From Afipia massiliensis (lineage in GTDB: Bacteria; Pseudomonadota; Alphaproteobacteria; Rhizobiales; Xanthobacteraceae): DNA of 64,000 nucleotides. The stretch is from contig NZ_JACHIJ010000009.1 of assembly GCF_014203115.1 (NCBI RefSeq), positions 1 to 64,000 on the forward strand. The letters are read 5' to 3'. The notes under the pieces were generated by a model, which was not told the DNA's origin, did no database searches, and was given only the letters and a program-made list of their open reading frames with translations. The position numbers and the translations under genes were made by a program. Shown piece after piece: positions 14,407-57,739 of the stretch (position 1 is the first letter of the stretch; the number at the start of each line of letters is the position of its first letter).

Positions 14407-15113
14407 GCCGCTCTCCCTTCATCAAAAATCAGATCGAGATGAACCCGCAGCATCGCGGCGACATCGAGCGGCGCGTGCTTGCCGAACAGGCCTTGCCAGA
14501 TCACGGTAACAATCATCGGTCCGACCAGAAGCTGCGGAAAGTTCGCCAATCCCAGATTGCGGATTTCGCCGCGCGCGATGCCGTATTCGATCAGCTTGCG
14601 CATTCCGGCGATGCCGTGCGCCACCACCTCGCGGTAATAGAATTCGGCAAGCTGCGGAAAGCGCGTGCCTTCGGAAATAATCATCCGCACAATGTCGGCG
14701 CGTTTTGTACCAATGACTTCGCGGGCGAACGTCTCGGCCAACGCTTCCATCGCGGCGCGTGCCGATCCCCCTCCCACGCCGATTGGAGGATTTGCGATCC
14801 GCACGATCAGCGGGCCGAGCGCGGTGCGCACCAGTTCCTGAAACAGCGCTTCCTTGTCCTTGAAGTGCAGATAGATCGTACCCTTGGCGACGCCAGCGCG
14901 TTTGGCCACGTCATCGAGGCGGGTCGCGGCAAAGCCTTTCGCCGTGAACTCATCGAGACCCGCGGCGACAATCGCCGCGCGGCGCTCCGTCGCGCCGACG
15001 GCGCGCTTCGATGGACGCGGGTGCGCGGCACGGTCGGCAGGCGCACGCGCTTTGGTACTGCGCGCGGGCTTGTCTTTGACGGGACGGGTGTCGATCAACG
15101 GGAGTTTTGCCAT
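14403..15113 (-). CDS. TetR-family transcriptional regulator of the exporter operon
   Basis: 236 residues. A basic, Pro/Ala-rich tail of about 40 residues precedes the TetR DNA-binding domain (ERRAAIVAAGLDEFTAKGFAA ... RLDDVAKRAGVAKGTIYLHF). The C-terminal ligand domain resembles those of AcrR-like regulators of efflux pumps. It is the first gene of the operon, so it should repress itself and the pump. The ATG at 15113 lies only 2 nt from the operator palindrome and has no visible ribosome binding site, so either the message is leaderless or translation begins at an internal codon within the tail. Confidence 0.85.
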   Translation of the reverse strand: MAKLPLIDTRPVKDKPARSTKARAPADRAAHPRPSKRAVGATERRAAIVAAGLDEFTAKGFAATRLDDVAKRAGVAKGTIYLHFKDKEALFQELVRTALGPLIVRIANPPIGVGGGSARAAMEALAETFAREVIGTKRADIVRMIISEGTRFPQLAEFYYREVVAHGIAGMRKLIEYGIARGEIRNLGLANFPQLLVGPMIVTVIWQGLFGKHAPLDVAAMLRVHLDLIFDEGRAA

Positions 15114-15115
15114 AC

Positions 15116-15149
15116 ATTGAATATGACTGACTGGTCAGTCATATTCAAT
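15116..15149. promoter_or_regulatory. TetR operator: 16-bp perfect inverted repeat
   Basis: attgaatatgactgac (15116-15131) and its exact complement (15134-15149) flank a 2-nt centre, giving the core tgactgac-tg-gtcagtca. This A+T-rich 34-bp palindrome directly precedes the tetR start codon and must overlap the promoter or transcription start. Such long perfect palindromes are typical TetR-family operators, so autorepression of the tetR-hlyD-ABC operon is the likely logic. The remaining sequence to 15249 shows nothing else. Confidence 0.8.
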
Positions 15150-15249
15150 GACAAAAATTGACTCACCTTAAGACACTGATTTCTTGAGATTATTTAGAAA
15201 TACCCCGAGGTGACTTCACCGCCACGATGCCCATAGCAGTACCGGACGG

Positions 15250-45410: not shown

Positions 45411-45664
45411 ATTCGCGTCCTTAACTGCCTCGGTCCTGCGGCTGGGCCAGGAATCTTCAACGGCCTGTCGCTCTGACCATATATGTAGCGTGAAACGGTT
45501 CCGCAGCCCAATCAAATCGCTGAAAGGGTGCCATGCCACCCCCAGAGGGGGAATGCGGGTCTGCCATGCCTCTCTCTCCGTAACAGCGTCGTAGCCAACG
45601 CGTATCCATTTCATGGCCGACGGTGCCTTTTTTCTCCGGCGAGGCGCCCTATCTAGAGCATCCG

Positions 45665-45712
45665 TTCTGCGGAACCGATCCGCAGAAGCATCGTTCTCTC
45701 CTCAACCGGAGA
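45665..45712 (+). promoter_or_regulatory. Two hairpins in the egtB leader
   Basis: ttctgcgga (45665-45673) pairs with tccgcagaa (45679-45687), loop accga. Then tctcc (45697-45701) pairs with ggaga (45708-45712), which is the egtB ribosome site 5 nt before the GTG. The first hairpin sits in a tctagagca-containing stretch like a common Bradyrhizobiaceae repeat; the second is short and may only weakly hinder translation. Confidence 0.4.
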
Positions 45713-45717
45713 ATCTC

Positions 45718-47001
45718 GTGACGAAACCAGCATCCCAGCCAGACGCCCGTGTCGCCACGTCCTCCGCCAATACGGCCGAATCCAGCCAAAAACTCCTTCA
45801 GGAATCCCGCGACGAACGGGCCGCTAGGCTGCTGACGGCCTACCGCACCGTCCGGGACGAGACCGAGCGGCGGGCGGCTCCGTTGTCCCCCGAGGATCAG
45901 CTGGTTCAGTCGATGCCGGACGCCAGCCCGACCAAATGGCACCGCGCCCACGTCACCTGGTTCTGGGAGCAATTCCTGCTCGGCGAGCATTCCCCCGGCT
46001 ACCAGCCCTATCACCCCGACTACGCCTACCTGTTCAATTCCTATTACGTCAGCGCCGGGCCGCGCCACGCCCGGGCCCAGCGCGGTCACCTCACCCGTCC
46101 CGGTGCGGACGAGGTGACGGCCTATCGCAAGCATGTCGATGCCGCAGTCGCGGCATTTTTCAGTTCGGCGGATGTGGACACGCTGGCGAAACTAGAGCCG
46201 CTGATTGAGGTCGGCCTCAATCACGAGCAGCAGCATCAGGAATTGCTTCTCACCGACATCCTGCATGCCTTCGCACAGAATCCGATCCCGCCGGCCTATG
46301 AACCCGGCTGGGCATTCCCGGCTGCGACCCGCACCGGCGACGCATGGGTCACCCTGATGGAAGGCATCCACACCATCGGCCACGCCGACAATTCATTTCA
46401 TTTCGACAACGAAAAGCCCGCGCACCGCGCGCTGGTCGGCCCCGTCAAGCTGGCGCGCAATCTCGTGACCAACGCCGAGTGGCTCGCCTTCATGAAGGAC
46501 GGCGGATACACGACGCCGACGCTGTGGCTGATGGACGGCTTCGCGGCCGCCGAACGTGAGGAATGGCAGGCCCCCGGTCATTGGCGCAACATTAATGGCG
46601 AATGGAAGATCATGACGCTCGGCGGCTTGCAGCCCATCGATCCCACGGCTCCCGTTTCACATGTCAGCTACTATGAAGCCGATGCTTTTGCGCGCTGGAG
46701 CGGCAAGCATCTGCCGACCGAAATGGAATGGGAAGTCGCCGCCCGCGCCGGTCATCTTAACGACGCCTTCGGCATCGTCTGGCAGTGGACCCGCAGTTCG
46801 TACTCGCCCTACCCCGGTTACCGCGCCATCGACGGCGCGCTCGGGGAATACAACGGCAAATTCATGGTCAACCAACTGGTGCTGCGCGGCTCATCGCTGG
46901 CAACGCCGGACAATCATAGCCGCATTACCTATCGCAATTTCTTCTATCCACATCATCGCTGGCAGTTCACCGGACTGCGGCTCACCGATTACGCCGTTTA
47001 A
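45718..47001 (+). CDS. egtB: Ergothioneine biosynthesis protein EgtB (sulfoxide synthase)
   Basis: 427 residues from GTG 45718. The N-terminal DinB-like domain carries the iron ligands: a His in KWHRAHVTWFWE (residues 74-85) and His169/His173 in NHEQQHQELL. The C-terminal formylglycine-generating-enzyme-like domain ends YRNFFYPHHRWQFTGLRL. EgtB joins cysteine or gamma-glutamylcysteine to trimethylhistidine with oxygen. egtD follows 22 nt downstream. The egtA, egtC and egtE genes are not here, as is usual outside actinobacteria. Confidence 0.9.
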   Translation: MTKPASQPDARVATSSANTAESSQKLLQESRDERAARLLTAYRTVRDETERRAAPLSPEDQLVQSMPDASPTKWHRAHVTWFWEQFLLGEHSPGYQPYHPDYAYLFNSYYVSAGPRHARAQRGHLTRPGADEVTAYRKHVDAAVAAFFSSADVDTLAKLEPLIEVGLNHEQQHQELLLTDILHAFAQNPIPPAYEPGWAFPAATRTGDAWVTLMEGIHTIGHADNSFHFDNEKPAHRALVGPVKLARNLVTNAEWLAFMKDGGYTTPTLWLMDGFAAAEREEWQAPGHWRNINGEWKIMTLGGLQPIDPTAPVSHVSYYEADAFARWSGKHLPTEMEWEVAARAGHLNDAFGIVWQWTRSSYSPYPGYRAIDGALGEYNGKFMVNQLVLRGSSLATPDNHSRITYRNFFYPHHRWQFTGLRLTDYAV

Positions 47002-47023
47002 ACCCTGAACACACGAGACCGTC

Positions 47024-48001
47024 ATGAATGTGCATGTCAACGCGCGGGCCGAGGCTCCGCTTCACGATCAGATTGACCATTCTTTCGCTCAGGACGTGAT
47101 TGCTGGATTGTCGCAGCAACCGAAAAAGCTGTCGCCTAAATATTTCTACGACGAGGCTGGCTCGAAACTGTTCGAGCAGATCACGCTGCTGCCGGAGTAC
47201 TATCCGACCCGCACCGAACTACGCATCCTGCGCGACCGTGGTTCGGAGATCGCCCAGGCGATCCCCGCAAACGCCGCGCTGGTCGAATTCGGCGCAGGCG
47301 CCACAACCAAGGTGCGCCTTCTGCTCAAGCAGTGCTCGTTCAAGGCCTACGTCCCGGTGGATATCTCCGGTGATTTCCTCAACGGTCAGGCGAGCGCCTT
47401 GCGTGAAGACTTCCTCGATCTCGCGGTTTATCCGGTGACGGCCGACTTCACCAAGCCGTTCGAACTGCCGCTGGAAGTCAAGGACATGCCGAAAGTCGGC
47501 TTCTTTCCCGGATCGACCATCGGCAATTTCGATCCGCATGAAGCCTGTGCCTTCCTGCGCAGCGCCCGCGCCATTCTCGGCGAAGGCGCGACGCTGATCG
47601 TCGGCGTCGATCTCGAGAAGGACGAGCGCGTGCTTCACGACGCCTACAACGATGCGGCGGGCGTGACCGGCCAGTTCAATCTCAATGTGCTTGCGCGGAT
47701 CAACCGCGAACTCGGCGGCAATCTCGATCTCGACGGATTCAAGCATCGCGCGATCTACAACCGCCAGCGCCATCGCATCGAGATGCATCTCATCAGCCGC
47801 AAGCCGCAGACCGTGCGGGTGCTGGATCACACGGCGACGTTCCGCACCGGCGAGACGATCCACACCGAGAGCAGCTACAAATACAGCATCGAGCGCTTCA
47901 CGGCGCTGGCGCGGGGCTCGGGATGGACTCCGCGTGCATCATGGACCGATCCTGACGGGATGTTCTCCGTTCACGCGCTGGTGGCGGAAAACGGGGTCTG
48001 A
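47024..48001 (+). CDS. egtD: L-histidine N-alpha-methyltransferase EgtD
   Basis: 325 residues. KKLSPKYFYDEAGSKLFEQI is the family's substrate-side N-terminus, and ALVEFGAGATTKVRLLL the SAM-binding motif. Next come FFPGSTIGNFDP and the C-terminal HTESSYKYSIERF that closes over the histidine. It trimethylates histidine to hercynine, the substrate of EgtB. With egtB it forms a minimal two-gene ergothioneine operon. Confidence 0.92.
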   Translation: MNVHVNARAEAPLHDQIDHSFAQDVIAGLSQQPKKLSPKYFYDEAGSKLFEQITLLPEYYPTRTELRILRDRGSEIAQAIPANAALVEFGAGATTKVRLLLKQCSFKAYVPVDISGDFLNGQASALREDFLDLAVYPVTADFTKPFELPLEVKDMPKVGFFPGSTIGNFDPHEACAFLRSARAILGEGATLIVGVDLEKDERVLHDAYNDAAGVTGQFNLNVLARINRELGGNLDLDGFKHRAIYNRQRHRIEMHLISRKPQTVRVLDHTATFRTGETIHTESSYKYSIERFTALARGSGWTPRASWTDPDGMFSVHALVAENGV

Positions 48002-49210: not shown

Positions 49211-49447
49211 TCAGGCGTCAGGCACGCCCGTCTGCAGCGCCAGCGCATGCAGGACGCCGCCCATCTGCCCCTTCAGCGACTGATAGACGATCTGGTGCTG
49301 CTGTACCCGCGATTTACCGCGAAAAGCTTCCGAGATGACGGTGGCAGCGTAGTGGTCGCCGTCGCCTGCGAGGTCGCGGATTTCCACCTTCGCGTCGGGC
49401 AACGCAGCCTTGATCATCGTTTCGATGTCCCGCGCGTCCATTGGCAT
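49211..49447 (-). CDS. BolA/IbaG family protein
   Basis: 78 residues. ARDIETMIKAALPDAKVEIRDLAGDGDHY is the IbaG/BolA N-terminal region and AFRGKSRVQQHQIVYQSL contains the conserved RxxxHxxVY-like motif with the His used for cluster binding. Proteins of this type bind the CGFS glutaredoxin (here grxD at 45075) to form a 2Fe-2S complex. The ATG at 49447 has gggag 10 nt upstream; a second ATG two codons later is possible. Confidence 0.88.
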   Translation of the reverse strand: MPMDARDIETMIKAALPDAKVEIRDLAGDGDHYAATVISEAFRGKSRVQQHQIVYQSLKGQMGGVLHALALQTGVPDA

Positions 49448-49550
49448 GTCTTTGAATCTCCCGATCTTGAGCCATTCCGGGCCCAGGCAATGCACCGAAA
49501 TATGACTGATTCTAGCCCTTGCAACCTGCGCCGTCACGCAAGCATTGCGC

Positions 49551-49712
49551 TAGTGTGGGGGTTCGCAAGTCCGCATTGTTTCCCCGGCGCGTACATATGC
49601 GGACTTGCGAACCCAAACCACACTAGAATCATAGTCTTCTAGTGTCCTTTTGAAACCGAAGTTCGCTACGGGAGCCGGAAAATAAGGCGAACTTCGGTTT
49701 CAGGACACTAGA
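49551..49712. repeat. Double-hairpin element, copy 1
   Basis: Hairpin 1 (49551-49627) has an outer stem ctagtgtgg/ccacactag, a 3-nt aaa bulge on its 3' side, and a 17-bp inner stem gggttcgcaagtccgca with its exact complement around a 22-nt loop. After a 12-nt spacer, hairpin 2 (49640-49712) has an outer stem ctagtgtcc/ggacactag, a ttt bulge on its 5' side, and a 16-bp inner stem tgaaaccgaagttcgc with its complement around a 20-nt loop. A second copy is at 56965-57128. It lies between the divergent bolA and DUF427 genes. Confidence 0.85.
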
Positions 49713-49748: not shown

Positions 49749-50117
49749 ATGAACGTTCGCATGAGAATTCCAGGCCCGGACCACCCAATTGCGATCTCAG
49801 CGAACTCAAAACGGGTCCGGATCAGCGTCGGCGGCGAGCTCATCGCCGAAACCAGCCGCGCCCTGACCCTCAAGGAAGCCAACTATCCGCCAGTTCAGTA
49901 CATTCCGCGCGAGGATGCCAACCCTGCCAGGTTGAAGCGCACCGACCACAGCACCTATTGCCCCTACAAGGGCGATGCGAGCTATTTCAGCATCGTTTCC
50001 GGCGGCAAGACGCTGGAGAACGCCATCTGGACCTACGAGACGCCCTACGATTCGATGAAAGACATCGCCGGGCATCTGGCGTTCTATCCAAACAAAGTCA
50101 CGATCGAAGAGATCTAA
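49749..50117 (+). CDS. DUF427 domain protein
   Basis: 122 residues of the DUF427 fold (small beta-rich cytoplasmic proteins). HPIAISANSKRVRISVGGELIAET at the N-terminus, YIPREDAN, the family's TYCPYKGDASYFSI motif with the conserved Cys, and DSMKDIAGHLAFYPNKVTI near the end are diagnostic. The function is unknown; some members are suspected nucleotide- or metabolite-binding proteins. A tatatt box at 49721 could be its -10, which would place the -35 inside the 3' arm of the double-hairpin element. Confidence 0.82.
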   Translation: MNVRMRIPGPDHPIAISANSKRVRISVGGELIAETSRALTLKEANYPPVQYIPREDANPARLKRTDHSTYCPYKGDASYFSIVSGGKTLENAIWTYETPYDSMKDIAGHLAFYPNKVTIEEI

Positions 50118-54670: not shown

Positions 54671-56917
<2,247 letters not shown>

Positions 56918-56964
56918 CCCTCCGGGCAACCAGAGGGTCGGATAAGGCGGAATAGGCGTGATTT

Positions 56965-57128
56965 CTAGTGTGGTGGTTCGCAGGTCCGTATCATTTCCTT
57001 CGCGCGCTCATATACGGACCTGCGAACCAAAACCACACTAGAATCTATGATTTCCAGTGTCCTTTCGAAGCCGACGTTCGCACGGAAGCCGCTGCAAAAT
57101 GGAGCGAACGTCGGCTTCGGGACACTGG
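56965..57128. repeat. Double-hairpin element, copy 2
   Basis: Same plan as 49551-49712. Hairpin 1 (56965-57041): outer ctagtgtgg/ccacactag, aaa bulge at 57030-57032, inner 18-bp stem tggttcgcaggtccgtat with its complement. Spacer of 12 nt. Hairpin 2 (57054-57128): outer ccagtgtcc/ggacactgg, ttt bulge at 57063-57065, inner 16-bp stem cgaagccgacgttcgc with its complement. Loops share short blocks with copy 1 (tttcc...gcgcg; acgg.agccg...aaaat). It lies between the divergent purL and thioesterase genes. Confidence 0.85.
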
Positions 57129-57277: not shown

Positions 57278-57739
57278 TTGGATGACGTTCCGCAGAAGAC
57301 ACCCCGTTTCCGTCCCGACCTCCTGATCGCGACCGAGGGCGAGTTCGCCGGATGGCGGACCTGGAGCCGCGACAGCTTCGAATCCAACAACGGTCCGTTC
57401 TGGCACCGTTTCGAGGACGACGGCAGCATCCGCTGTGCGTTCCGCGTCGAGCGGAAGCACCTGAACGGCATGCGCAACGTCCATGGTGGCTGCTACATGA
57501 CGTTCGCCGACTACTGCCTGTTCGCCTTCGCCGCCCGCGAGCTTGAAGCTCCGGCGGTCACAGTGTCATTCGGCTGCGAATTCCTCGCGGCCGCGCGCGA
57601 AGGCGACCTCGTCGTCTCAACCGGTGAAGTGACCCGTGCTGCCGGATCGCTCATCTTCCTGCGCGGCATCATGCACACCGGCGACAAGCCGCTGTTCACG
57701 TTTTCCGGCACGATCAAGCGGATGAAGAAGAAAGCGTAA
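57278..57739 (+). CDS. PaaI-type hotdog thioesterase
   Basis: 153 residues, starting at TTG 57278 with aagga upstream, because no ATG fits. A single hotdog domain: NGMRNVHGGCYMTFADYCLF contains the HGG active-site loop, and the strand AVTVSFGCEFLAAAREGDLVV follows. Such enzymes cleave acyl-CoA thioesters; the ligand is unknown. It lies on the plus strand between purL and purQ, splitting the purine genes. The 149-bp gap before it carries GC-rich partial repeats around 57200-57265 but no clear promoter. Confidence 0.75.
   Translation: MDDVPQKTPRFRPDLLIATEGEFAGWRTWSRDSFESNNGPFWHRFEDDGSIRCAFRVERKHLNGMRNVHGGCYMTFADYCLFAFAARELEAPAVTVSFGCEFLAAAREGDLVVSTGEVTRAAGSLIFLRGIMHTGDKPLFTFSGTIKRMKKKA

Follow-up and report, generated by a model that had tools for sequence, protein, structure and literature searches.

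The ends of IS200/IS605 elements are hairpins, which work with a cleavage tetramer and a guide that pairs to it. CIR reportedly stands for Caulobacter CcrM-associated intergenic repeats, a name said to go back to Chen and Shapiro 2003. In passages of PMC2229807, CIR are described as repeats of about 110 bp with two long stem-loops, a linker and 5'TA3' termini, found outside genes in Alphaproteobacteria, with a GANTC motif at or in the terminal loop; their mechanism of mobility is called unknown there, and more information is said to be needed. By this account, small double-hairpin repeats are already on record in Alphaproteobacteria. CIR are also named in a part of PMC10969869, and PMC8266576 describes the REPs of one group as palindromes that have a bulge and follow a motif.

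We analysed a window (the whole stretch of 64,000 nucleotides) which contains two copies of a double hairpin. The two copies are members of a mobile DNA repeat family of about 163 bp, which is intergenic and occurs across many Alphaproteobacteria. Both are on the plus strand. Copy 1 includes hairpin A (49550..49626), with a 9-bp basal stem, an AAA bulge in the 3' arm, an inner stem and a loop, the 12-nt linker AATCATAGTCTT (49627..49638) and hairpin B (49639..49711), which has a TTT bulge in the 5' arm and is homologous to reversed A; both outer tetramers are CTAG. Copy 2 includes hairpin A (56965..57041) with the outer tetramer CTAG, the 12-nt linker AATCTATGATTT (57042..57053) and hairpin B (57054..57128), whose outer tetramer CTGG pairs with an inner CCAG. 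The copies are 162 and 164 bp long, with hairpin units of 73-77 nt. The only GANTC sites of the two window copies, at 49626 (using the last G of hairpin A) and 57041, both span the junction between the hairpin A foot and the linker.

The initial annotation had recognised a shared architecture with an AAA bulge, a TTT bulge and a 12-nt spacer, all of which are present in both copies; the element that it placed at copy 1 is real, with the start given one base late, the true start being 49550. It had also counted seven stem differences between the copies, each compensated. This was confirmed pair by pair: both copies have Watson-Crick pairs at 27/27 positions of hairpin A and 25/25 positions of hairpin B (52/52), and the seven pairs that differ (A 10, 19, 25; B 2, 10, 14, 19) are compensated in 7/7 cases. 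The folding z-scores were -10.9 and -11.0 (200 shuffles per copy), and no shuffle was as good. The strict pattern CTAGTGTN{45,75}ACACTAG had 3 matches in the window, whereas 100 shuffled versions gave 0.00 on average. Because reversed hairpin A (CTAGTGTGG/TTT/...) resembles hairpin B (CTAGTGTCC/TTT/...) and is related to it in the inner stem and loop as well, the element consists of two homologous hairpin units placed head to head, with the bulges toward the linker.

The neighbours of copy 1 are a BolA-family gene on the minus strand (49211..49441, PF01722) and a DUF427 gene on the plus strand (49749..50117, PF04248). Copy 2 is neighboured by a gene on the minus strand (54671..56929; PF00586, PF02769, PF18072), which we take to be purL-like, and by a thioesterase-superfamily gene on the plus strand (57278..57739, PF03061). 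Although coding sequence is predicted for about 82% of the window, predicted genes contain 0/48 element groups in the genome of the window (G000). There, 22 groups are found between tandem genes, 19 between divergent genes and 3 between convergent genes, and 4 are unclassified. Clustering in divergent promoters, which had been suggested, depends on how the background is counted. If the intergenic bases in the window are counted (4190 tandem, 3382 divergent and 854 convergent, total 8426), the placement is as expected; by intergenic regions (28 tandem, 12 divergent, 7 convergent, n=47) the divergent positions are over-represented (19/44 groups vs 12/47 regions). Because the background, defined with a custom codon-usage gene caller, is this one window alone with both elements included, the idea is unsupported rather than settled.

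At ten copies in G000 (L017, L029, L031, L032, L034, L049, L052, L053, L060 and L062), the CTAG end tetramer overlaps the predicted end of a neighbour gene by 4 bases, so the element may supply the TAG stop codon of that gene.

Other features of the window were observed besides the double hairpins. Palindromic repeats of other kinds are located at 924-1048 (40-nt arms, GTCGTCCCCGCGAAAGCGGGGAC...) and 689-798 (a 19-nt pair); the former resembles CGTC-tagged REPs. A long palindrome, TTGAATATGACTGACTGGTCAGTCATATTCAA, at 15101-15160 resembles an operator of a TetR-type regulator. Adjoining genes at 45613-48001 encode DinB_2 plus FGE-sulfatase domains and a histidine-specific methyltransferase domain, an arrangement that we take to be that of ergothioneine biosynthesis (egtB, egtD).

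The repeat is abundant in G000, with 51 hairpins of the strict pattern against 1 for the reversed control, and 54 matches to the whole element by similarity. Among 61 genomes, strict-pattern carriers were found in 27/29 of the host genus (G000 counted), 2/8 from other genera of the family and 0/24 from other families of the order. One congener, G028, had an extreme load of 458 strict-pattern hairpins. A 400-kb sample of G028 (L288-L307) contained 95 units, which by eye form at least 7 subfamilies, each with its own A and B stems.

An even draw across the class gave matches in 13/241 genomes and 12/191 genera (G000 counted), although chance may explain some of the single matches. A scan of a species-genome collection gave at least 115 stretches; among the 80 matches listed by title nearly all were Alphaproteobacteria, and the genera among the matches listed included Afipia, Bradyrhizobium, Hyphomicrobium, Caulobacter, Mesorhizobium, Paramagnetospirillum and Terasakiella. 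The host genus, which has unit types in common with the Afipia records, is probably Afipia. Isolated matches to Bacteroidales and Chloroflexi sequences were chance-like or unclear. Whole-genome counts were 1 in Asticcacaulis currens, 93 in a Hyphomicrobium and up to 132 in a Bradyrhizobium. In the genus of Caulobacter ginsengisoli only 2/26 drawn genomes matched, showing a patchy distribution. On plasmids, 7 Roseibium/Labrenzia records matched in part (58% of the query), and the plasmid search with one G028 element gave no match. Viral contigs gave 29 stretches, some with family-like units and others of unrelated sequence.

The head-to-head arrangement is common to the family: adjacent units are arranged as A-linker-B in 42/44 cases in G000, 35/43 in the G028 sample and 100/114 in other records. 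Facing units are separated by 11-18 nt with a linker consensus near AATCATAAAGTTG, and some units are chained through one common CTAG. Within an element, A and B stems are more similar than expected (10.45 vs 10.11 shuffled in 212 pairs, above 300/300 shuffles), a small excess in which subfamily and host effects are mixed. GANTC, the CcrM site, occurs somewhere in 164/189 double elements, in the stem of 181/242 B units, and in the linker and feet of 90/189 doubles.

In addition, a hairpin with a related stem and a very short loop, which would bring its element nearer to the CIR size, was found at G120:C13:12584-12652.

Sites without the element were found for both window copies. Copy 1 is absent at the orthologous site of eight relatives (G014, G015, G018, G019, G020, G025, G027 and G028), which have four other bases there, and copy 2 is absent in three (G018, G019 and G020), which have CGGG. 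The initial annotation did not consider mobility, which these orthologous empty sites show. Relative G013, which is 96% identical to G000 over the copy-1 locus, has an element at the same site for 12/25 compared copies (L024 at only about 86% identity). When the 25 G000 copies were compared with G020, 0/23 scored sites had the element: 21 were clean empty sites, 1 had a different repeat and 1 was ambiguous, with 2 unscored. Three loci, L031, L040 and L042, carry an element in G018 but none in G013, which means that loss or recombination takes place as well. In G340, a genome of a Caulobacter genus, near-identical pairs are placed in unrelated flanks: L394/L395 (99.4% over 166 bp), L396/L397 (98.8% over 166 bp) and L398/L399 (98.8% over 165 bp). 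Their identity stops at the CTAG feet or at most 3 bases from them. The element is a discrete unit ending at the CTAG feet, with recent and repeated insertions between genes.

L257, L278 and L287 are the sites orthologous to L020; in place of the double hairpin of G000 they hold another repeat-like sequence, about 200 bp long (GTCATGCCCGGGCATA...). At L022 the relatives carry a separate insertion nearby, not the same copy. L267, in G013 at the site of L024, is an element of about 86% identity, with site and orientation the same as in G000 and G018; it could have come about by insertion more than once, by conversion or by rapid change.

Target sites hold about 4 nt that are similar to CTAG. At the 16/25 loci with a clear empty site of 4-5 nt, the tetramers, typed by hand, matched CTAG at 2.62/4 positions, compared with 1.01 for nearby 4-mers (L017-L020, L030, L031, L034, L040 and L045 were omitted from these tests). 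With the least favourable register and relative the match was still 2.25/4, and 0/20,000 draws reached 2.25. CTAG at both ends and empty sites of about 4 nt resembling it are what would be expected of a classical MITE, in which a DDE transposase acts on inverted ends with a 4-bp CTAG-type target duplication. The empty tetramer equals both outer tetramers at L037, L038 and L032 (the last against G018), which are possible cases of such duplication. However, the outer tetramers at most loci are CTAG and differ from the tetramer of the relatives, so simple target duplication was not seen there; examples are L021 (CCCG in 3 relatives), L028 (CTGA in 3), L029 and L041 (CGGG in 3), besides others. 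The foot also varies together with its inner partner, and within one element the outer feet need not be alike, as in copy 2 with CTAG and CTGG. We regard a classical MITE as quite improbable.

The feet that are not CTAG tend to resemble their own target (84/128 vs 76.9 shuffled, p 0.004, with registers chosen by eye). The inner partner is complementary to such a foot; at L037, for example, the site is CTGG, the ends are CTGG and the inner partner is CCAG.

Stems of the family stay paired across subfamilies. In 507 distinct units, 11,747/12,168 stem pairs were Watson-Crick (96.5%), a fraction inflated by the unit finder, which demanded pairing (at least 6/9 outer and at least 11.5/16 inner) and also fed the covariation sample; the units are related to one another and not independent. 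In 40 B units, taken from 113 prepared ones (38 from the species-genome scan and 2 from the window), 98.1% of 999 cells were paired and 13 pairs changed on both sides. The covariation score was 0.241 vs 0.087 after shuffling, with 0/500 shuffles as high, and structures slid by 1-3 columns scored 0.010-0.048. The initial annotation had held that pairing rather than sequence is conserved, and had proposed statistical covariation and a search of relatives as a check; for the family as a whole, conservation of pairing is supported, with strong covariation.

Such pairing might be selected as RNA, as was also suggested, in a structured RNA or a host regulatory element such as a terminator, an mRNA stabiliser or a regulatory RNA. 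The very stable fold, the strong covariation and the strictly intergenic location in G000 fit this idea, and G.T-type cells are in weak excess over A.C-type cells when counted in single-unit orientation (144 vs 112). By unit, the counts of non-Watson-Crick cells were 93 G.T-type and 77 A.C-type for A units, and 51 and 35 for B units. However, on the A-to-B strand they were 128 and 128, showing no strand asymmetry. The elements are also often absent at orthologous sites and, as described below, drift on one side at a time. In the Rfam search of the window, 0 families reached the gathering cut-off, and copy 1 had one chance-level hit. We consider selection for RNA pairing very unlikely; Rfam, wobble symmetry and orthologue drift all leave it unsupported.

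Copies fixed at a locus drift mostly one side at a time. We compared 19 pairs of orthologous copies at 15 loci, using fixed stem positions; 7/26 comparisons were skipped for low coverage or identity <88% (L024/L267, L022 twice, L020 three times and L038). Of 40 changed stem pairs, at least 4 of which were counted against two relatives, 38 had changed on one side only; 2/40 had changed on both sides, and 1 of these stayed paired. Compensation at a fixed locus is thus not supported. The stems had diverged at 42/1819 positions (2.3%), the flanks at 231/5671, the loops and bulges at 57/1065 (5.4%) and the linkers at 16/223. Fixed copies therefore lose pairing somewhat slowly, through one-sided changes, although the family overall remains paired. 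The lower divergence of stems compared with flanks or loops means that constraint or repair of some kind also operates at the locus.

Stems could also be equalised by arm-to-arm copying, i.e. template switching at a quasi-palindrome in replication, by which changes that arise in one arm, or foot tetramers taken from the target, would be copied into the other arm without selection on folding. Template switching is described in a part of PMC8794818 as able to create and maintain hairpins. The resemblance of non-CTAG feet to their own sites, with inner partners that follow (L037), agrees with such copying, and the copy 2 orthologue in G013 has a T.C mismatch where G000 has a G-C pair. But only 1/40 changed orthologue pairs was two-sided and still paired, and without selection the stems should diverge as fast as the loops, whereas they diverged more slowly. 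As the sole cause of the pairing, copying between arms is unlikely in our opinion.

Given the equal G.T-type and A.C-type counts and the 38/40 one-sided changes between orthologues, pairing is probably renewed when elements move, rather than kept in place as host RNA. Most simply, every movement puts the pairing to the test, and template switching may add to this effect.

Taken as a whole, we find it fairly probable that the repeat is a non-autonomous mobile DNA element, whose folded form is read by a trans-acting enzyme and whose pairing is renewed at movement. The element is made of two inverted homologous hairpin units, with bulges facing a short A+T-rich linker and CTAG-like foot tetramers. 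The putative enzyme would recognise folded DNA, either as single-stranded hairpins or as a cruciform, and might use the bulge and the foot tetramer pair as landmarks. Well-paired copies would then multiply, which would renew the pairing at each movement. By eye, none of the listed unit pairs was recognised as bearing a gene, and no mobilising gene was found.

Two bulged hairpins in inverted orientation, with a tetramer conserved at the foot, could also be a BIME/REPIN-type repeat mobilised by a RAYT (TnpAREP) Y1 transposase, and Y1 genes do occur in 3/29 genus genomes and 4/12 other carrier genomes. However, PF01797 had no match at E 0.001 in 26/29 genus genomes, including G000, G013 and G028. 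The RAYT-like protein of G004 matched only G004 and G020 (2/29 genomes), with none in G000, and the 10 Y1 loci scanned had no paired foot motifs around the gene. The units, of about 73-79 nt, are also larger than the REPs of 20-40 bp described in a part of PMC3733652. Mobilisation of this kind appears extremely unlikely.

RAYT/REP mobilisation was rejected for G000, where both PF01797 and the RAYT-like protein were without match. The mobilising enzyme is probably not a Y1/RAYT transposase. We also speculate, as a possible but rather doubtful extension, that folded double hairpins move without a Y1 transposase, with the foot tetramer pair guiding the choice of CTAG-like targets and the target tetramer being overwritten, and that the coexisting subfamilies represent diverged specificities of an undescribed enzyme.

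The evidence points to a fold that matters as DNA rather than as host RNA. Strong covariation is often read as proof of a functional RNA; here it accompanies mobile DNA without the strand signature of RNA, which calls for caution. In this family the ends are well marked, empty sites are numerous, targets show a preference, some copies are recent, and there are both carrier genomes and genomes that lack it, and so the search for a putative mobiliser becomes feasible.

Like REP/BIME/REPIN sequences, the double hairpin combines two inverted palindromes, a short linker and a tetramer at the foot, and is intergenic and of high copy number. It differs in its larger units, in its CTAG foot compared with the GTAG/CGTC tags in the part of PMC3733652 consulted, and in that no RAYT was found in G000. 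Br-REP1 and Br-REP2 of Bradyrhizobium, as far as the portion of PMC5082802 at hand describes them, are also intergenic palindromic repeats of the same bacterial group, but by eye their consensus sequences printed there differ from ours. Like IS200/IS605 ends, the two foot sides pair here and the target resembles the foot; unlike them, no Y1 gene was found in G000 and no target tetramer is retained at most loci.

In the literature compared we met no description of the double-hairpin family, and the portions of PMC3973325 and PMC2267715 at hand contained nothing on it; the original CIR description (Chen and Shapiro 2003) was outside this comparison, and an earlier description is possible. The closest known kind is CIR. 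As in the passages of PMC2229807 on CIR, two stem-loops are joined by a linker, TA is present at the termini (in the CTAG ends) and the repeats are outside genes (0/48 G000 groups in predicted genes). In contrast to the roughly 110 bp given in those passages, the double hairpin has about 163 bp (162 and 164 in the window, 165-166 in G340), and its GANTC is found in B stems or in the linker and feet, not at or in the terminal loop. The likeness is one of description, so that the repeat is a CIR-like variant and not a proven CIR. The double-hairpin repeat looks like a CIR-like small mobile element.
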